Shown here: piece after piece, positions 16,506 to 24,864 of the stretch | How the letters are laid out: every line of letters starts with the position of its first letter | Numbering within the stretch: position 1 is the stretch's first letter | NCBI RefSeq assembly: GCF_900129495.1 | Contig: NZ_FQVX01000002.1 | Location: 1,178,001 to 1,242,000, forward strand | Length of the DNA stretch: 64,000 bases | Direction of reading: 5' to 3' | From: Geodermatophilus nigrescens | GTDB taxonomy: Bacteria; Actinomycetota; Actinomycetes; Mycobacteriales; Geodermatophilaceae | The notes under the pieces: generated by a model | What the model saw: the letters and a program-made list of their open reading frames with translations, nothing else | What the model was told of the DNA's origin: nothing | Databases searched by the model: none | Program-made: the position numbers and the translations under genes

Positions 16506-17636
16506 ATGCCCGCTGTGAACACCGTCCTCGTCGTGGGCGGCGGCCTGGCCGGCGCCGGCGCCGCCGTCCACCTCGCGCAGGCCGGCGTCGCCGTCGACCT
16601 GGTCGAGATCAAGCCCGACACCGCCGCGCTCGGGTCCGGCATCACGCTGCAGGGCAACGCCCTGCGCGAGCTGCGGTCCCTCGGCGTGTGGGAGCAGGTG
16701 CAGGCCGCCGGGTACGCCTTCGACGTCACCGGCATCCGCGCGCCCGACCCGCACGGCACGGTGGTCGCCGAGGTGCCGGACGCCAAGACCGGCGGCCCGG
16801 ACCTGCCCGCCGCGATGGGCATGCTCCGCCCGGAGCTCGCCCGCATCCTCCTCGACCGGGCCACCGAGGTCGGCGTCAAGGTGCGGTTCGGCACCACCCA
16901 CACCGCGCTGGTCCAGGACGCCGACGGCGTCGACGTGACCTTCGCCGACGGGTCCACCGGCCGCTACGACCTCGTGGTCGGCGCCGACGGCGTCCGGTCG
17001 TGGACCCGCCGCGCGCTCGGCGTGAACCTGGAGACCCGGTCGGTCGGCATGGGCATCTGGCGGGCGTTCGGCCCGCGGCCGGCGAGCGTCACCCGCACCG
17101 ACCTGTACTACGGCGGCCCGTCCTACATCGCCGGCTACTGCCCGACCGGCGAGGACTCCCTCTACGCCTACATCGTCGAGGACGCCCAGGACCGCAGTGC
17201 CCTGACCCCCGACGAGCAGCTCGCCACGATGAAGGAGCTCTCCCGGGCCTACCACGGCCCCTGGGACGAGATCCGCGAGACGCTCACCGACCCCTCGCGG
17301 GTCAACTACACCTGGTTCGAGACCCACGTCCTCGACGAGCCCTGGAACCGGGGCCGGGTCGTGCTGATCGGCGACGCCGCGCACACCTGCCCGCCCACCA
17401 TCGCGCAGGGCGGGGCCATGGCCCTGGAGGACGCCGTCGTCCTCGCCGAGCTGCTGGTCGACCGGTCCGCGCTCGACCAGGACCTGTGGGACGCCTTCCA
17501 CGCCCGCCGCCTCGAGCGCGCGCGGACCGTCGTCGACGCCTCCAACCAGCTCGCCCAGTGGCAGCTCGACCACGTGCGGGGCGACATCCCTGCCCTCATG
17601 CGCTCGATCGCCCAGCTGACCAGCCAGCCCGCCTAG
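16506..17636 (+). CDS. class A FAD-dependent aromatic monooxygenase (PHBH/salicylate-hydroxylase type)
   Basis: 376 residues. GGGLAGAGAAVHL near the N-terminus binds the FAD ADP part, VVGADGVRS near residue 160 is the DG motif shared by FAD and NAD(P)H binding, and LIGDAAHTCPPTIAQGG near 285 binds the flavin ribityl chain. This is the complete signature of single-component aromatic hydroxylases. AGGAGG lies six bases upstream of the ATG at 16506. Within the operon it probably hydroxylates the ring before cleavage by the dioxygenase encoded next. Confidence 0.9.
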   Translation: MPAVNTVLVVGGGLAGAGAAVHLAQAGVAVDLVEIKPDTAALGSGITLQGNALRELRSLGVWEQVQAAGYAFDVTGIRAPDPHGTVVAEVPDAKTGGPDLPAAMGMLRPELARILLDRATEVGVKVRFGTTHTALVQDADGVDVTFADGSTGRYDLVVGADGVRSWTRRALGVNLETRSVGMGIWRAFGPRPASVTRTDLYYGGPSYIAGYCPTGEDSLYAYIVEDAQDRSALTPDEQLATMKELSRAYHGPWDEIRETLTDPSRVNYTWFETHVLDEPWNRGRVVLIGDAAHTCPPTIAQGGAMALEDAVVLAELLVDRSALDQDLWDAFHARRLERARTVVDASNQLAQWQLDHVRGDIPALMRSIAQLTSQPA

Positions 17637-17646
17637 CCAGCCTCCC

Positions 17647-17666
17647 GCCTCCCGCGCGCGGGAGGC
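17647..17666. repeat. 20-base perfect palindrome in the operon
   Basis: A perfect self-complementary 20-base sequence built of GCCTCCCGCG and its complement lies between the monooxygenase and dioxygenase genes, eight bases before the AGGAGA ribosome site. As RNA it can form a hairpin, so it may stabilise or attenuate the downstream message. Confidence 0.6.
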
Positions 17667-17686
17667 GCCGTTCCAGGAGAACGACC

Positions 17687-18625
17687 ATGACCCAGCGCCT
17701 GATCACCCACCTGCGGCACGTCGACCTCGCCGTGCCGGACCTGCGCACGCAGGAGGACTTCTTCACCAACACGTGGGGCCTGAAGGCCGAGCACAGCGAC
17801 TCGGGCCTGACGTTCCTGGCCGCCGAGGGCAGCCCCGAGCAGTACGTCGTCCGGCTGCGCGAGGCCACCGACAAGCGGATCGACCTGATCTCCTTCGGCG
17901 CGGCCACCGCCGCCGACGTCGACACCCTCGCCGGGCAGCTCGCCCGCGACGGCGTCCAGCTCGTCGGCGAGCCCGACACCCTGCAGACCCCCGGCGGCGG
18001 CTACGGGTTCCGGTTCTTCGACAACGAGGGCCGCACGGTGGAGATCAGCTCCGACGTCGCCGTCCGGCAGCACCGCCGGATCGAGGAGGGCGAGTCGATC
18101 CCGGTCCGCCTCTCGCACGTCGTCATCAACTCCGCCGACCCCGAGGGCACGCGGGCGTTCTACGAGAAGCACCTGGCCTTCGCCCTGTCGGACACGCTCG
18201 TGCACCCGCGGATGGGCAACATGATGTGGTTCATGCGGGTCAACGCCTGGCACCACAGCATGGCCATCGCCCGCGGCCCGCACCCCTCGCTGCACCACGC
18301 CTCCTTCGAGATGCGCGGCATCGACGAGTACATGCGCGGCACCGGCCGGCTGCTGCGCGCGGGCGTGGAGAAGATCTGGGGCCCGGGCCGGCACCTGGCC
18401 GGCAACAACACCTTCAGCTACTTCCTCGACCCGCACGGCAACACCGTCGAGTACACGACCGAGCTCGATCTGCTCGACGAGGACACCTGGCACCCGCACG
18501 TCTACGACATCAGCAACCCCGAGGTCAGCGACCAGTGGGGCACGGCGAACGCCATGAACGAGTTCGTCGCGCAGAAGTCGTTCAACGACCCGGACAAGGG
18601 CCTGTTCGTGGCCCCGCCCGTCTGA
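17687..18625 (+). CDS. type I extradiol ring-cleavage dioxygenase (VOC fold)
   Basis: 312 residues made of two vicinal-oxygen-chelate domains. The iron ligands of BphC-type extradiol dioxygenases are present in the second domain: His144 (RLSHVV), His204 (SLHHASFE) and Glu255 (NTVEYTTE), with Tyr245 before the last. The enzyme should cleave a catechol-like ring next to its hydroxyl groups with Fe(II) and O2. AGGAGA at 17675-17680 supports the ATG. The FAH-family hydrolase start overlaps its stop (TGATG), coupling cleavage and the next hydrolytic step. Confidence 0.9.
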   Translation: MTQRLITHLRHVDLAVPDLRTQEDFFTNTWGLKAEHSDSGLTFLAAEGSPEQYVVRLREATDKRIDLISFGAATAADVDTLAGQLARDGVQLVGEPDTLQTPGGGYGFRFFDNEGRTVEISSDVAVRQHRRIEEGESIPVRLSHVVINSADPEGTRAFYEKHLAFALSDTLVHPRMGNMMWFMRVNAWHHSMAIARGPHPSLHHASFEMRGIDEYMRGTGRLLRAGVEKIWGPGRHLAGNNTFSYFLDPHGNTVEYTTELDLLDEDTWHPHVYDISNPEVSDQWGTANAMNEFVAQKSFNDPDKGLFVAPPV

Positions 18626-19599
18626 TGCGGTTCGCCACCTGGTCCGCCGGGGGCGCGGTGCGGGCCGGCGTCGTGAGCGACTCCGGCCTGCACGCGCTCC
18701 CCGAGGGGACGACGGTCCTCGACCTCGTGCGCGCGGGGCTGCCCGCCGCGCTCGCGGCCGGGGAGGAGGCGCTGCGCGGTCCGGCCGTGCCGCTGGACTC
18801 CGTCCGCCTGCTGCCGCCGCTGGAGGCGCCGACGGTCCGCGACTTCGTCACCTTCGAGGAGCACGTCGAGGGCATGGTCGCGCCCAGCGGCGAGCCGGTC
18901 GCGCCGGAGTGGTACCAGGCGCCGACGTTCTACTTCACCAATCCGTACGCGCTCGTCGGCGCGCACGACGACGTCCCGGTGCCGCCGGGCTCGCAGCGCT
19001 TCGACTTCGAGCTCGAGGTCGCCGTGGTGGTCGGCGCTGTCGAGGGCTCCGACGGCGCCTCGCTCACGCCCGAGCAGGCGCGCGACCACGTGTTCGGGTA
19101 CACGGTCCTCAACGACTGGTCGGCCCGCGACCTGCAGTTCCGGGAGATGGCCGTCAAGCTCGGCCCGGCCAAGGGCAAGGACTCCGCCACGACCCTCGGG
19201 CCGTGGCTGGTGACCGCCGACGAGCTGGAGCCGCACCGGGACGCCGAGGGGTTCCTGGCCCTCGACATGCGGGTGTCGGTCAACGGCGAGCAGATCGGGC
19301 AGGACCTGCTGTCCAACATGGGCTGGCCGTTCGAGGAGCTGATCGCCTACGCCTCCCGCGGCACGGAGGTCCGCGCCGGCGACGTGCTGGGCTCGGGCAC
19401 CTGCGGCAACGGCGGCTGCCTCGGCGAGCTCTGGGGCCGCCGCGGCGAGCTGTCCCCGCCGCCGCTGCGGCCCGGCGACGTCGTGGAGATGACCGTCGAG
19501 GGCATCGGCACCATCCGCAACCGCGTCGTCGAGGGCGTCGAGCTGCCGCCGGTCCGGGCCGCCCGGCCCCGCCCGCGCACCCGCACGCGCGCGGCGTGA
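18625..19599 (+). CDS. fumarylacetoacetate-hydrolase family protein
   Basis: 324 residues. The metal site shows as RFDFELEVAVVVG, and GYTVLNDWSARDLQ with a downstream GSGTCGNG block follows in the usual order for FAH-family hydrolases and ketopentenoate hydratase/decarboxylase relatives. Such enzymes act on C-C bonds or enol-keto tautomers of ring-cleavage products. The start overlaps the dioxygenase stop by one base. The C-terminus ends in an Arg/Pro/Thr-rich tail of about 15 residues that lacks family similarity. Confidence 0.88.
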   Translation: MRFATWSAGGAVRAGVVSDSGLHALPEGTTVLDLVRAGLPAALAAGEEALRGPAVPLDSVRLLPPLEAPTVRDFVTFEEHVEGMVAPSGEPVAPEWYQAPTFYFTNPYALVGAHDDVPVPPGSQRFDFELEVAVVVGAVEGSDGASLTPEQARDHVFGYTVLNDWSARDLQFREMAVKLGPAKGKDSATTLGPWLVTADELEPHRDAEGFLALDMRVSVNGEQIGQDLLSNMGWPFEELIAYASRGTEVRAGDVLGSGTCGNGGCLGELWGRRGELSPPPLRPGDVVEMTVEGIGTIRNRVVEGVELPPVRAARPRPRTRTRAA

Positions 19600-19606
19600 G
19601 CCCCTC

Positions 19607-20371
19607 GTGAGTCTCGCCGGCCGGGTCGTCGTCGTCACCGGCGCGGCCCAGGGGCAGGGGGCGGCCGAGGCCCGGCTGCTCGCCGCCGAGGGCGCGGTCG
19701 TCGTCGCCACCGACGTGCAGGACGCCCCCGCCGAGGACCTCGGCGGGGCCGCCTACCGGCGGCTCGACGTCACCGACGCCGCCGGCTGGGCGGCGCTCGC
19801 CGCCGACCTCCGTGCGGAGCACGGCCGCGTGCACGGGCTGGTCGCCAACGCCGGGGTCACCTGGCGGGCGCGGCTGGCCGACCTCGACCCCGCCGACCTC
19901 GCCCGGGTGTCCGGGGTGAACGTCACCGGGACGCTGCTCGGCATCCAGGCGCTGACCCCGCTGATGACCGGCGGCGGCTCGGTCGTCGTCGTCGGCTCGG
20001 TGGCCGCGCTGACCGGGCACTTCCCGGTCGCCTACACCGCGTCGAAGTGGGCGCTGCGGGGGCTGGCCAAGGCCGCCTGCCTGGAGCTCGGCCCGTACGG
20101 CATCCGGGTCAACACGGTCCACCCCGGCTACGTCGAGACGCCGATGACCGCCTCGGCGGCACCGGCGTTCCGCGCCGCCAACGTCGCCGAGACCCCGCTC
20201 GGCCGCACCGGCACCGTCGACGAGGTGGCGCCCCTGGTGGCCTTCCTCCTCGGCGACGGTGCCTCCTTCATCACCGGCGCCGAGATCCCCGTCGACGGCG
20301 GGATGACCGCCCACGGCGGCGTGAAGTCGATCAGCGACGCCGTGTCCGCCGCGGCGCCGGCCGCACCCTGA
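19607..20371 (+). CDS. short-chain dehydrogenase/reductase of the catabolic operon
   Basis: 254 residues starting at GTG 19607. It shows TGAAQGQGAAEA (cofactor loop), NAG, the Ser of VVVGSVAAL and a YTASK catalytic pair near residue 144, and ends with a GAEIPVDGGM block. It lies eight bases after the FAH-family gene and 14 bases before the hydrolase gene, so it is part of the operon. It probably oxidises an alcohol formed from the ring-cleavage product or from the starting substrate. Confidence 0.88.
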   Translation: MSLAGRVVVVTGAAQGQGAAEARLLAAEGAVVVATDVQDAPAEDLGGAAYRRLDVTDAAGWAALAADLRAEHGRVHGLVANAGVTWRARLADLDPADLARVSGVNVTGTLLGIQALTPLMTGGGSVVVVGSVAALTGHFPVAYTASKWALRGLAKAACLELGPYGIRVNTVHPGYVETPMTASAAPAFRAANVAETPLGRTGTVDEVAPLVAFLLGDGASFITGAEIPVDGGMTAHGGVKSISDAVSAAAPAAP

Positions 20372-20384
20372 GAGGAACTCCCCC

Positions 20385-21569
20385 GTGTTCGAGTACTTCC
20401 CCACCGGCCCCTACACCTGGAACCTGTCCGTCGTCGCCACGCTGAACTCCGGCGGGCTCATCGACGAGGTCGACCGCGCCTGCCGGCCGATCAAGGACGC
20501 CGCGAACGCCGGTGAGGACGCCGGGACGCCGGACTTCCTGCGCGCCTGGACCGCGCTGACCGACCAGCTCGTCGGCCAGGCCGAGGAAGCCGAGAAGGCC
20601 GGGCACGTGCGCACCGCCGGGCAGCTGTGGTTCCGCGCGTCGAACTACCTGGCGCAGGCCGAGCGGATGCTCGCCCACTCCGACCCGAACCGGGTGCCCA
20701 CCTACCGGCGGATGCTCGAGATCGCGCAGAAGGCGTTCGACACGCACAGCCCGCGCGTCTCCCGGGTCGAGGTCCCCTACGAGGGCACGACGCTGCCCGC
20801 CTACTTCTCGCAGGCGCCGGCCGCCGACGACGGCCCCGTCCCGGTCGTCGTGCTGGTCAACGGGCTGGACTCCACCAAGGAGCACATGTACGCGTCGAAC
20901 CACTGGGAGGAGCTGGCCGCGCGCGGCATCTCCTGCCTGATGCTCGACCAGCCCGGCACCGGTGAGTCGCTGCGGCTGCAGGGGCTGACGGCGCGGGTGG
21001 ACACCGAGGCCTGGGGCGGCGCCGCCGTGGACTACCTGGAGACGCGCGAGGACGTCGACGCCTCGCGGATCGGGATCGTCGGCTGGTCGCTGGGCGGCTA
21101 CTACGCCCCGCGCGCCGCGGCGTTCGAGAAGCGGTTCGCCCTCTGCGTGGCGTGGGGCGCCAACCACGACTGGGGCGCGGTGCAGCGCCGTCGTCGGCAG
21201 CGCGAGGGCGAGCGCCCGGTGCCGCACTACTGGGAGCACGTGCTCTGGGTGTGGGGCCAGCCCGGCGACGAGAACGACCTCGACGCCTTCCTCGACTTCG
21301 CCGACCAGGTGAACCTCGAGGGCGTCGTCGAGCAGATCACCGTGCCGTTCCTCGTCGCCCACGGCGCCAACGACCGGCAGATCCCGCTGGAGATGGCGCA
21401 CCGCAGCCACTCCCAGGCCGTGAACTCGCCCAAGGCGGAGCTGCGGGTGTTCACGCCCGAGGAGGGCGCGACCGAGCACATCGGCCTGGACCACCTGCCG
21501 TACGTGAGCACCTTCGTCGCCGACTGGGTGGCCGACACCTTCGCCGAGCTCGGCCGGACGACGTCGTGA
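20385..21569 (+). CDS. alpha/beta-hydrolase of the FrsA/2,6-dihydroxypseudooxynicotine-hydrolase type
   Basis: 394 residues. An N-terminal helical lid region (1-125) precedes an alpha/beta-hydrolase core with VLVNGLDSTKEHMY, DQPGTGES and the nucleophile elbow GWSLGGYY (Ser235); a C-terminal His follows near residue 365 (EHIGLDH). The long helical cap and DQPG motif match the family of 2,6-dihydroxypseudooxynicotine hydrolase, a C-C bond hydrolase of nicotine degradation. In this operon a C-C hydrolysis of a side-chain ketone or a ring-cleavage product is plausible. Its stop overlaps the next start by GTGA. Confidence 0.85.
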   Translation: MFEYFPTGPYTWNLSVVATLNSGGLIDEVDRACRPIKDAANAGEDAGTPDFLRAWTALTDQLVGQAEEAEKAGHVRTAGQLWFRASNYLAQAERMLAHSDPNRVPTYRRMLEIAQKAFDTHSPRVSRVEVPYEGTTLPAYFSQAPAADDGPVPVVVLVNGLDSTKEHMYASNHWEELAARGISCLMLDQPGTGESLRLQGLTARVDTEAWGGAAVDYLETREDVDASRIGIVGWSLGGYYAPRAAAFEKRFALCVAWGANHDWGAVQRRRRQREGERPVPHYWEHVLWVWGQPGDENDLDAFLDFADQVNLEGVVEQITVPFLVAHGANDRQIPLEMAHRSHSQAVNSPKAELRVFTPEEGATEHIGLDHLPYVSTFVADWVADTFAELGRTTS

Positions 21570-21967
21570 GCATGCTGTTCGTCAAGCTGCCGGTGCGCGA
21601 CCTGCCCGCGGCGCGGGCGTTCTACCAGGCGCTCGGCTTCCGCGTGGAGGAGAACTCCTCCGACGACGGCGAGGCCGCGGTGGTCCTGGGCGACGAGCAG
21701 GTGCTGTCGCTGCAGACCCGTGAGCGCTTCGCCGCGCTGCTCCCGGGCGAGCCGGGCGACCCCTCGTCGGCCCCGACGGCGGTGCACGCCCTCACCGCCG
21801 GCGGCCGCGCCGAGGTCGACGACCTGGTGTCCCGCGCGATCGCGGCCGGCGGCCGTCCCGGCGCTCCCGCGCGCGAGGAGGAGGCCAGCTACAGCCGCAG
21901 CTTCGCCGACCCGGACGGCAACGTCTGGGAGGTCGTCTGGATCGACCACGTGCACGTCGTCAACTGA
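21566..21967 (+). CDS. glyoxalase/bleomycin-resistance (VOC) domain protein
   Basis: 133 residues, one VOC unit with two beta-alpha-beta-beta-beta modules (LPVRDLPAARAFYQALGF and SFADPDGNVWEVVW). The GTG at 21566 overlaps the hydrolase stop; ATG 21572 is an alternative. The last gene of the catabolic operon: it may be an accessory isomerase, a dioxygenase-related protein or a protective binding protein. A strong hairpin follows five bases after its stop. Confidence 0.8.
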   Translation: MSMLFVKLPVRDLPAARAFYQALGFRVEENSSDDGEAAVVLGDEQVLSLQTRERFAALLPGEPGDPSSAPTAVHALTAGGRAEVDDLVSRAIAAGGRPGAPAREEEASYSRSFADPDGNVWEVVWIDHVHVVN

Positions 21968-21972
21968 CGCCG

Positions 21973-22004
21973 GGTCGCCTGGGGGCGGACGCCCTCAGGC
22001 GACC
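21973..22004. terminator. bidirectional terminator between the catabolic operon and the LigB-type dioxygenase gene
   Basis: A 14-base stem with one G-U pair (21973-21986 with 21991-22004) and the loop GGAC. It lies between two convergent genes and overlaps the last codons of the leftward gene. Confidence 0.8.
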
Positions 22005-22879
22005 TGGAACGAGCGCCTGGCCAAGCCGATGAAGAAGCCGTCGATGGCCGTGGTGACGCCGGCCGCGGGGTCCGTGGCCACACCGAGCGTGACGAACAGC
22101 GGCGTGAAGTGCTCGACCGTGGGGTGGGCGTAGCGCAGGCCGGGCGCCCGCAGCCGGAACCGCGCCAGCTCCTCGACGTCGCCGCGCGCCAGCGCGTCGG
22201 CGGCCCACGCGTCGAAGTCCGCCGACCAGCCGGGCACCGCGCCGCCGAGCATCTCGCGGGTCAGGTACGGCAGGCCGTGGGTCATGAACCCCGACCCGAC
22301 CACCAGCACGCCCTGCTCCCGCAGCGGCCGCAGCCGCTCGCCGAGCGCCAGCAGCGTCGCGGTGTCGTGGGTGGGCAGGCTCAGCTGCAGCACCGGGACG
22401 TCGGCCTCCGGGTACATGACCTTGAGCGGCACCCAGGCGCCGTGGTCGAGGCCCCGCCCGCGGTGCTCGTGCACGTGCGCGGTCTCCGGCAGGACGGCGA
22501 GCAGCTGCCGCGCCAGGTCGGAGGACTCCGGGGTGTCGTAGCGCATCCGCGCGTACATCGGGTCGAACCCGCCGAAGTCGTAGACGAGCTCGGTGGGCAC
22601 CGTGCTGGTGATGCCGAGGGAGTCCGACTCCCAGTGCGCGCTGACGATGAGCACCGCCCGCGGCCGGGGCAGCGCCCGCGCCCAGGCGGCCAGGTCGCGC
22701 ATCCAGGCGGCGTCCTCGAACAGCGGCGGCGCGCCGTGGGAGAGGTACAGCGCCGGCAGCGGGCCGTCGTCCGGCGTCCAGGGGCGGTGCTCCCCCAGCC
22801 CGGCCACGTGCCCGAGGTGGGCGGCGAACGGGTGGCGGGGGTCGATGCGCGCGTCGGCGAGGGCGGTCGTCGAGGCCAC
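21995..22879 (-). CDS. LigB-type class III extradiol dioxygenase (DODA family)
   Basis: 294 residues. LSHGAPPLF, IVSAHWES, DHGAWVPLKVMYP and GSGFMTHGL contain the metal-binding histidines of 4,5-DOPA-dioxygenase/LigB-type enzymes and their relatives, including bacterial quinone- or catechol-stress dioxygenases. The GTG start lies three bases after the ribA stop, so the two genes form an operon. Expression is probably controlled by the divergent MarR gene through two palindromes. The catechol substrate is unknown; it is unrelated in fold to the dioxygenase at 17687. Confidence 0.87.
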   Translation of the reverse strand: MASTTALADARIDPRHPFAAHLGHVAGLGEHRPWTPDDGPLPALYLSHGAPPLFEDAAWMRDLAAWARALPRPRAVLIVSAHWESDSLGITSTVPTELVYDFGGFDPMYARMRYDTPESSDLARQLLAVLPETAHVHEHRGRGLDHGAWVPLKVMYPEADVPVLQLSLPTHDTATLLALGERLRPLREQGVLVVGSGFMTHGLPYLTREMLGGAVPGWSADFDAWAADALARGDVEELARFRLRAPGLRYAHPTVEHFTPLFVTLGVATDPAAGVTTAIDGFFIGLARRSFQVA

Positions 22880-22882
22880 CGG

Positions 22883-23575
22883 TCAGCCCGCCAGCGGGAG
22901 GTCGAGGGCGGGCAGGTCGAGCGTGTGCGCGGTGTGGTCGCGCTTGACGGCGAGGTAGCGCGCGTTGGCCGCCGACAGGTGGACGCCGGTGGGCACCCGC
23001 TCGGTCACCGCGACGCCGGCGAGCTCGAGCTGCGCGGCCTTGTCGGGGTTGTTCGACAGCAGGCGCACGCGGTCGGCGCCGACGGCGGCGAGCATCTGCG
23101 CGGCGGCGGTGTAGTCGCGCTCGTCGTCGCCGCGGCCCAGCGCGCGGTTGGCCGCGTAGGTGTCGAGGCCGGCGTCCTGCAGGGCGTAGGCGTCGAGCTT
23201 GGCGTACAGCCCGATGCCGCGGCCCTCCTGGCGGAGGTAGAGCAGGAACCCGCCCGCGGTGGTGATCCGCTCGGCCGCCTCGCGCAGCTGCGGGCCGCAG
23301 TCGCACCGCTCCGAGCCGAAGACGTCCCCGGTGAGGCACTCGCTGTGCGGGCGCACCAGGGGCGCCTCGCCGCCGGCGGCCGACCGCTCGAGCGCGCCGC
23401 GCCAGTCGCCGAGGCCGAGCAGCAGGTGCTCGCGGCCGTCGGCCAGCCCGTCGAAGGTGACGACGTCGGCCGTCGTCGCGTAGCCGTCGGGGAAGCGCAT
23501 CGGCACCGTCACGCGGGTGCGCACGGTCGCCGCCGGGGCCGGGGACACGACGCCCGCGTCGAGGGAGAGAGTCAT
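22883..23575 (-). CDS. ribA: GTP cyclohydrolase II
   Basis: 230 residues. HSECLTGDVFGSERCDCG supplies the three zinc cysteines, RQEGRGIGLYAK contains the catalytic Tyr/Arg region, and LLSNNPDK the GTP-binding end, all complete. The enzyme opens GTP to the first riboflavin precursor. It stands outside a rib operon, is not fused to ribB, and is joined to a LigB-type dioxygenase gene under an apparent MarR operator. It is therefore probably a second, inducible copy, though the main rib genes lie outside the window. Confidence 0.93.
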   Translation of the reverse strand: MTLSLDAGVVSPAPAATVRTRVTVPMRFPDGYATTADVVTFDGLADGREHLLLGLGDWRGALERSAAGGEAPLVRPHSECLTGDVFGSERCDCGPQLREAAERITTAGGFLLYLRQEGRGIGLYAKLDAYALQDAGLDTYAANRALGRGDDERDYTAAAQMLAAVGADRVRLLSNNPDKAAQLELAGVAVTERVPTGVHLSAANARYLAVKRDHTAHTLDLPALDLPLAG

Positions 23576-23591
23576 CGCGACCTCCGCTTCA

Positions 23592-23640
23592 GTTGTACCT
23601 ACAACCGATGACGCTAGTCCCCTTTGGTTGAAGCGACAAG
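23592..23640. promoter_or_regulatory. two MarR-type operators on the ribA-dioxygenase promoter
   Basis: GTTGTA-CC-TACAAC at 23592-23605 is a perfect inverted repeat; a second copy at 23627-23640 agrees at 10 of 14 positions. On the minus strand a promoter fits between and over them: -35 TTGTCG (23639-23634), 17 bases, -10 TAGCGT (23616-23611). Operator 2 covers the -35 and operator 1 the start region. The intergenic space is shared with the MarR gene, which begins at 23664. Confidence 0.75.
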
Positions 23641-23663
23641 TACCGCGGTGTCACCATGGGGTC

Positions 23664-24173
23664 GTGGCGGAGTGGCTGAGCGAGGACGAAATGGCGGCGT
23701 GGGTGCGCCTGGTCGCCGTCGTGGAGCTGCTGCCCGGCGTCCTCGACGGCCAGCTGCGCCGCGACGCGCAGGTGACCCACTTCGACTACCACGTGCTGGC
23801 GATGCTGTCGGAGGCCCCGGACCGGACGCTGCGCATGACCGAGCTGGCCACCCGCACCAACGCCACGCTGCCGCGGCTGTCCCACGTCGTGCGCCGGCTC
23901 GAGGAGCGCGGGCTGGTCGAGCGGGCACCCTGCCCCTGGGACGGCCGGGCCACCAACGCCCGGCTCACCGACGCGGGCTGGGCGAAGGTGCGCGCGACCG
24001 CGCCGGGGCACGTGGCCACCGTCCGCGAGCACGTCATCGACGCGCTCACCCCCGAGCAGGTGACGCAGCTGGCCGGCATCGCCGACGCGGTCCTGCGCCG
24101 CCTCGACCCCGACGGGAAGATGGCCGGGCTGCCGGGGGACGCCCCCGGAGGGGACCGCCGTCGGGCAGGGTGA
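23664..24173 (+). CDS. MarR-family transcriptional regulator
   Basis: 169 residues with the winged helix of MarR proteins: FDYHVLAMLSEAPDRTLRMTELATRTNATLPRLSHVVRRLEERGLVER, where the wing follows as DGRATNARLTDAGW. GTG at 23664 is chosen because it directly precedes the first helix; no good ribosome site is visible, and the transcript may be leaderless. It is divergent from ribA and lies next to two palindromes, so it most likely represses ribA and the LigB-type dioxygenase gene and releases on binding a phenolic or quinone ligand. Confidence 0.87.
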   Translation: MAEWLSEDEMAAWVRLVAVVELLPGVLDGQLRRDAQVTHFDYHVLAMLSEAPDRTLRMTELATRTNATLPRLSHVVRRLEERGLVERAPCPWDGRATNARLTDAGWAKVRATAPGHVATVREHVIDALTPEQVTQLAGIADAVLRRLDPDGKMAGLPGDAPGGDRRRAG

Positions 24174-24177
24174 GCCC

Positions 24178-24864
24178 ATGACCGCTCCCCTCGCCGTGCT
24201 GGTCCACGGCCTGTGGCACGGCGCCTGGTGCTTCGACGGCGTCCGCGCCGCCCTCGGCGAGCGCGGCGTCGACAGCCTCGCCGTCGACCTGCCGCTCACC
24301 GACCTGCCCGCCGACACCGCGGCGCTCCGGTCGGCGCTGGACGCCGCGGGCCGCCCGGCGGTGCTGGTCGGGCACTCCTACGGCGGCGCGGTGGTCACCG
24401 GCGCCGGCACGCACCCGCTGGTCCGCGAGCTGGTGTTCCTCGCCGCCTTCGCGCTCGACGACGGCGAGTCGGTGAGCCGCACCCGGCTCGGCGACCTGCC
24501 CGACACCCGGCTGGCCGAGGCGATGGTGGTGTCCGGCGACGAGATGGGCCTGGACCCCGTGCTGGGCGCCCGGCTGCTCTACGGCGACGCGCCGTTCGAG
24601 GTCGCCGCGGCGGCGCTGGCCCGGCTGCGCCCGGTGGGCCGGCAGGTGTTCCGCGGCGTGCCGGGGTCGATCGCCTGGCGCGGCGTGCCCTCGACCTATG
24701 CCGTGTGCACCGCCGACGAGGCCGTGCACCCCGAGCGGCAGCGCGCGATGGCGACCCGGGCGGGCGCCCGCACGGTCGAGTGGACCTGCGGCCACAGCCC
24801 GGCCGCCACCTGCCCGGAGGCGGTCGCCGACCTCGTCGCGGAGCGGGTCCGGGCCCTGGGCTGA
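24178..24864 (+). CDS. alpha/beta hydrolase (EstC/pheophytinase-like small esterase)
   Basis: 228 residues. VHGLWHGAWCFDGV is the oxyanion loop, VGHSYGGAVVTG the nucleophile elbow, and the catalytic Asp and His are expected near TADEAVHP and CGHSPAATCP. The compact length without a cap matches the salicylate-esterase/EstC-like group. It begins four bases after the marR stop, so it is probably co-transcribed with it. The substrate is not known. Confidence 0.87.
   Translation: MTAPLAVLVHGLWHGAWCFDGVRAALGERGVDSLAVDLPLTDLPADTAALRSALDAAGRPAVLVGHSYGGAVVTGAGTHPLVRELVFLAAFALDDGESVSRTRLGDLPDTRLAEAMVVSGDEMGLDPVLGARLLYGDAPFEVAAAALARLRPVGRQVFRGVPGSIAWRGVPSTYAVCTADEAVHPERQRAMATRAGARTVEWTCGHSPAATCPEAVADLVAERVRALG

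Follow-up and report, generated by a model that had tools for sequence, protein, structure and literature searches.

The marR–ribA2–dioxygenase locus

The window, a stretch of 64,000 nucleotides from Geodermatophilus nigrescens, contains a MarR-family regulator gene divergent from ribA2, a gene for GTP cyclohydrolase II, and from a LigB-type dioxygenase gene, as judged from the open reading frames of the window and their Pfam domains (GTP_cyclohydro2, LigB, and MarR). The features are the following.

21995..22879, minus strand: LigB/DODA-type class III extradiol dioxygenase gene (Pfam LigB; PDB matches)
22883..23575, minus strand: ribA2, stand-alone GTP cyclohydrolase II, the genome's second copy (Pfam GTP_cyclohydro2; active-site positions kept)
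23592-23605: predicted operator 1, perfect palindrome GTTGTACCTACAAC (GTTGTA-CC-TACAAC), just behind the ribA2 -10 box
23611-23616, minus strand: ribA2 -10 box TAGCGT, 17-bp spacer
23627-23640: predicted operator 2, imperfect 10/14 copy GTTGAAGCGACAAG, offset from operator 1 by 35 bp and spanning the -35 box
23634-23639, minus strand: ribA2 -35 box TTGTCG
23664..24173, plus strand: MarR-family regulator gene of the SCO3205/AbsC type (Pfam MarR_2; best PDB matches 3zpl and 3zmd; residue conservation)

The dioxygenase gene comes second, behind ribA2, at a distance of 3 bp. The gene positions, this short gap, and the Pfam domains bear out the operon of ribA and dioxygenase divergent from marR that had been proposed in a first-pass annotation. 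The start of marR is most likely the GTG at 23664 rather than the open-frame start at 23517, because, in the protein read from this GTG, the alignment with SCO3205 of Streptomyces coelicolor sets in at residue 3. The marR gene is followed after 4 bp by an alpha/beta hydrolase gene (24178-24864), perhaps in the same transcript; the hydrolase gene has no tblastn match (E 1e-6, >60 aa) in the 109 related loci described below. Another set of genes, at 16506-21968, is convergent and comprises an FAD monooxygenase, a VOC-type protein, an FAH-like protein, an SDR, an alpha/beta hydrolase, and a VOC-like protein, where the VOC, FAH, and SDR labels are what we take these sequences to be; the gene order is kept in locus L033, and in L062 as far as the record extends.

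The same annotation had seen a perfect palindrome and a 10/14 copy on a promoter of the form TTGTCG-17-TAGCGT between marR and ribA, and we found both at those positions, with the -35 box inside the weak copy and the -10 box between the two sites. Shuffled versions of the window gave a mean of 0.29 palindrome matches at ≤3 mismatches, and at least two matches in 8 of 100 shuffles, a control that applies to loose matches and not to the exact palindrome. The palindrome core TTGTANNTACAA occurs exactly once in the whole genome (4,738,773 bases), and the pattern TTGWANNTWCAA likewise once, against zero for its control pattern. With one mismatch, TTGTANNTACAA has two more genomic sites (L146 1551-1562 and L147 1510-1521), which are about what chance would give, because one site of this kind is found for the reversed control pattern too; the L146 site lies 36 bp before a 372-aa open frame resembling a membrane protein. 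The genome-wide search that the annotation had suggested thus recovered the palindrome core of the locus and no further exact copy in 4.74 Mb. A regulon of many exact sites is not supported, the palindrome core being unique.

A spare GTP cyclohydrolase II and its partners

Another GTP cyclohydrolase II of this genome sits in a ribD-ribE-ribBA-ribH operon (L145), and ribA2 is therefore a spare copy. The annotation had set against MarR control the case of a constitutively expressed ribA that is the only one in the genome; this case does not apply and is rejected, since the separate rib operon is present. RibA2 scores 249.7 bits with the NCBIfam subfamily model NF001591 (over the cut-off of 148) and 177.4 bits with the equivalog model TIGR00505 (under the cut-off of 205.85). 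The neighboring dioxygenase scores 102.2 bits with the LigB domain of Pfam (cut-off 26.3), and its PDB matches are 4,5-DOPA dioxygenase extradiol and YgiD. DOPA is not claimed as the substrate because the score with the 4,5-DOPA dioxygenase equivalog NF007914 is 149.9 bits, below the cut-off of 233.

We collected 109 loci of the ribA2 clade. A sample of 121 genomes of the order gave 29 of them, with scores over about 189 bits and the G. nigrescens locus itself not counted; the other 80 are named loci, a set in which high identity with the window is over-represented. A locus was counted as linked when tblastn (E ≤1e-4) placed an SCO3205-type MarR within -3.5/+4.5 kb of ribA2. When genes were first picked by GC bias, MarR appeared in only 27 loci, and the census was redone with tblastn seeds. 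MarR is linked to ribA2 in 53 of the 109 loci (9/29 of the order-sampled ones); adding the window gives 54 linked and 56 unlinked loci. The linked loci span 11 named genera, with Microbacterium contributing 20/54. Positions C80, C91, C93, R119, Y130, D151, and R153 of RibA2, presumably the cysteine and active-site positions of GTP cyclohydrolase II, are kept in all 54 linked proteins. In SCO6655 of S. coelicolor, a Tyr-to-Met change goes with loss of GTP cyclohydrolase II function; a loss of this kind is rejected here, as Tyr130 is present in 54/54 linked and 56/56 unlinked proteins.

The architectures among the 53 linked loci are ribA-MarR (31), ribA-deaminase-MarR (5), MarR/ribA-DODA (3), MarR/ribA (3), ribA-MarR-RibD (2), ribA-DODA-MarR (2), ribA-nitroreductase-MarR (2), and five single types. 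DODA genes are found in 8/54 linked and nitroreductase genes in 4/54, as compared to 0/56 unlinked loci for each, and one or both occur in only 11/54 linked loci, so that the aromatic part appears to be accessory. These counts refer to loci picked by ribA2, and MarR-DODA pairs without ribA2, like SCO3205/3204, lie outside them. A RibD-type deaminase or RibD is present in 9/54 linked loci. Of the unlinked loci, 35 have RibD_C and/or PTPS genes and 21 do not.

In a phylum sample of 197 genomes, a member of the clade (E 1e-60) was found in 10, G. nigrescens among them, and MarR is present in 6 of the 8 newly fetched loci. Reductase and deaminase sequences stand side by side in 5/6 further linked loci, all from one genus; in L161, the only one of the five tested, they form a single fused protein by Pfam. 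RibA2 is fused to an extra domain in L098 (Arthrobacter sp. S39) and L157, and the best models for this domain are HsaA and the oxygenase of p-hydroxyphenylacetate hydroxylase, with scores under the cut-offs of those models. Neither fusion locus has a MarR in range, and L098 has an operator-like site. On a RibA2 tree from a quick search, in which 54/110 inner branches are open, MarR linkage needs 8 changes, as compared to 38.1 on shuffled labels; linkage is thus clustered on the tree, from which a single origin does not follow.

The regulator and its predicted operators

The best PDB match of the window MarR is 3zpl (SCO3205; E 2.1e-33, residues 3-157 of 169), followed by 3zmd (AbsC), and 70 of 155 aligned residues are identical to SCO3205. 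According to passages of the SCO3205 paper (PMC3737563), the SCO3205 gene lies divergently to that of a class III extradiol dioxygenase, and its product binds two operators (KD 1.3 and 2.4 nM) with the consensus TTnAAnnnTCAA; the authors assigned it no function and saw no clear physiological theme. The window shares with the SCO3205-SCO3204 pair the divergent arrangement, the two pseudopalindromic operators between the genes, and the operator geometry described in those passages; aligned with the published consensus, its two sites show 1 and 2 mismatches. In contrast to that pair, the window has ribA2 as the first gene of the divergent operon, its half-site is TTGTA and not TTGAA, and Pro70 replaces Ser73. 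The passages mention no ribA, either with SCO3205 or with AbsC. A pairing of MarR with a dioxygenase is already known, and the GTP cyclohydrolase is the addition; a literature search covering titles and the starts of abstracts found, among the papers listed, nothing on an operon of ribA, MarR, and dioxygenase.

Residues W13 and H116 of the window MarR align with the Trp and His named in the SCO3205 paper, and C90 is the equivalent of Cys93 in the wing of SCO3205. In passages of that paper (PMC3737563), the Trp/His pair is reported to bind salicylate in AbsC, and Cys93 to show extra density suggesting oxidation. The window MarR keeps both the pair, as in AbsC and SCO3205, and the wing cysteine of SCO3205; across 61 regulators, SCO3205 and the window MarR included, W13 is conserved in 59, H116 in 61, and C90 in 58. 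Judging from this conservation, the sensor could be the Trp13/His116 pocket or the near-invariant wing Cys90. The MarR of L052, with Ala at 70 and 74 and Val at 90, is probably unrelated to the others by its residues and was left in all counts. Unlike the window MarR, AbsC is implicated in zinc-dependent antibiotic production, according to the same passages (PMC3737563).

Operators were sought in a region that begins 220 bp ahead of the ribA2 match and includes its first 40 bp. An exact copy of the SCO3205 consensus as published, on either strand, is present in 42/54 linked but only 6/56 unlinked loci, and a copy with ≤1 mismatch in 52/54 and 9/56, respectively. The motif TTGNANNTNCAA, with ≤1 mismatch, is present in 48/54 linked and 6/56 unlinked loci, against a mean of 0.92 (largest 3) of 54 in shuffled linked regions; this motif and the variant half-sites were learnt from the same loci, and only the published consensus is independent. 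At least one site-bearing linked locus was found under 18 of 20 genus labels, the others being Pimelobacter (0/2) and one more (0/1), and sites are present in part in Nocardioides (1/3) and in one other label (1/2). A second site, for which 2 mismatches were allowed, lies 33-35 bp away in 16 of the 22 linked loci that have one at 25-45 bp. In 9/21 site pairs, TANNNT follows 16-19 bp behind the upstream TTGNAN, where 0.81 would be expected. The six unlinked loci with an operator-like site upstream of ribA2 are L069, L098, L102, L122, L124, and L128; such a site therefore needs no nearby MarR, and the regulator may be encoded elsewhere in those genomes. As for the two closest MarR paralogues in the G. 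nigrescens genome (44% and 39%), neither has a TTGNANNTNCAA site with ≤1 mismatch in the searched surrounding DNA, and near one of them a sequence fits the published consensus with 1 mismatch.

The operator form varies together with the recognition helix. Residues 70 and 74 of MarR are equivalent to Ser73 and His77 of SCO3205, which belong to the three residues contacting major-groove bases according to passages of PMC3737563. TTGTA half-sites are present in 5/5 loci with Pro70 and in 0 of the other 55, and TTCAA half-sites in 7/7 loci with Tyr74 and in 0 of the other 53; the Tyr74 loci were searched over 420 bp and the others over 220 bp, and the variant forms had been noticed before being counted. 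Through mixed sites, 3/5 Pro70 loci partly fit the TTGAA form as well, and 17/60 loci have none of the three strict half-site forms. This covariation amounts to few events, because Pro70 is limited to Geodermatophilus and kin of the same genus and Tyr74 to few lineages.

We also compared the locus with the MhqR system. The dioxygenases of MhqR regulons belong to another family than LigB/DODA. MhqR of Bacillus subtilis and Staphylococcus aureus controls quinone-responsive regulons with ring-cleavage dioxygenases and nitroreductases, and passages of PMC6798810 name no GTP cyclohydrolase among them. The window system resembles it, as far as described there, in having a MarR-type repressor with a dioxygenase partner and differs in its operator: the 9-9 bp operator of S. 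aureus MhqR has no match in the window at ≤3 mismatches.

Proposed control and alternative readings

Comparison across loci supports the operators, their overlap with the promoter, the kept enzyme residues, and the conserved linkage. We infer that MarR binds in this strain and acts in repression rather than activation: a dimer would bind both pseudopalindromes, the one that covers the -35 box of ribA2 and the one that follows shortly after its -10 box, and by promoter occlusion would repress ribA2 and the dioxygenase gene, possibly also its own gene. The presumed ligand, an aromatic acid or quinone-like compound, would release MarR, the mode of sensing being either the Trp13/His116 pocket or modification of Cys90. 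Release would raise the supply of GTP cyclohydrolase II, which catalyzes the committed step of flavin synthesis, and of a dioxygenase with a putative ring-cleavage substrate; the extra precursor, with flavin as the supposed end product, may serve flavin-dependent oxygenases or reductases acting on the aromatic compound. We assign a probability of about 0.5 to the reading in which flavin-precursor supply and ring cleavage are both induced through a repressor that senses an aromatic or electrophilic compound. A wider formulation seems rather unlikely to hold as a whole, namely that an SCO3205-type MarR guards a modular operon with a spare GTP cyclohydrolase II in the 11 named actinobacterial genera and several further ones, making a special pyrimidine- or flavin-like product on demand with a varied deaminase, reductase, nitroreductase, or dioxygenase, and is a dual sensor with a salicylate-type pocket and an oxidisable wing cysteine.

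MarR control of the ribA–dioxygenase operon, as the first-pass annotation had it, is well supported by the conserved operators, the published SCO3205 operators, and the operator/helix covariation. A raised flavin supply, which it also suggested, is favored to some extent by the RibD-type enzymes next to RibA2 and by the two fusions to a flavin-dependent hydroxylase-like domain, though these fusions are in loci with no MarR nearby. The phenolic or quinone stress that it proposed is a conjecture: the regulator is of the SCO3205/AbsC type, the MhqR operator has no match in the window, and dioxygenase or nitroreductase genes are present in a low share (11/54) of the linked loci.

RibA2 might instead be the entry to a pathway of its own whose product is a pyrimidine-derived metabolite; deaminase, reductase, oxygenase, and dioxygenase would then be tailoring enzymes, and there would be no flavin boost. 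Stand-alone deaminases, the reductase-deaminase fusion of L161, and the hydroxylase fusions beside or on RibA2 would fit such a pathway, as would the 35/109 loci of the same clade that have RibD_C and/or PTPS without MarR, and the glycosyltransferase, methyltransferase-like, and dehydrogenase-like genes of L083, which fall into clusters with genes from about 20-30 further loci. However, of the gene families searched for, 31/109 loci have only ribA2 and MarR, which would not make up a pathway unless its other genes are located elsewhere, and no deaminase or reductase stands beside ribA2 in the window; we consider this reading improbable. Ordinary catabolic regulation, with the dioxygenase as the target of MarR and ribA2 as a passenger, would agree with SCO3205/SCO3204 as a MarR-dioxygenase pair for which the passages of PMC3737563 mention no ribA, and with the convergent set holding an FAD monooxygenase and an alpha/beta hydrolase. 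It is very unlikely, given that DODA occurs in only 8/54 linked loci (chosen by ribA2) and that the link between ribA2 and MarR remains while their order and orientation vary.

5-amino-6-ribitylaminouracil is a precursor common to coenzyme F420 and flavins, and extra amounts of it might feed F420 besides or instead of flavins, with F420-dependent reductases handling quinones. The genome encodes a CofG-domain (FbiC-like) protein (463 bits, 893-aa frame), in keeping with this idea, to which we give little credence. In E. coli, ribA is, to our knowledge, the only one. It is under soxRS control there, and GTP cyclohydrolase II hydrolyses 8-oxo-dGTP, as cited in passages of PMC6092379; the likeness to the window is a stress-controlled GTP cyclohydrolase II, and the differences are another regulator and a gene that is not a spare copy. 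By analogy, RibA2 might clean the nucleotide pool by hydrolysing oxidised guanine nucleotides under redox stress, but this would leave the RibD-type partners and the hydroxylase fusions unexplained, and its chances appear slim.

Under the preferred reading, in which flavin precursor is supplied on induction and in connection with aromatic oxidation, the recurrent spare GTP cyclohydrolase II would suggest a role for SCO3205-type regulators; for SCO3205 itself, the operators have been mapped and a crystal structure of the DNA complex has been solved. The locus also offers natural operator and recognition-helix variants for the study of MarR specificity, and the near-invariant wing cysteine is a candidate redox sensor.

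A second kind of locus without MarR has, alongside ribA2, genes for a RibD_C reductase, a PTPS/QueD-like protein, or both (L035, L036, L083, and others; 34/109 with L100 set aside). By gene content, these loci look like an undescribed pterin- or pyrimidine-type pathway. In L083, glycosyltransferase, methyltransferase-like, and dehydrogenase-like genes lie near ribA2.
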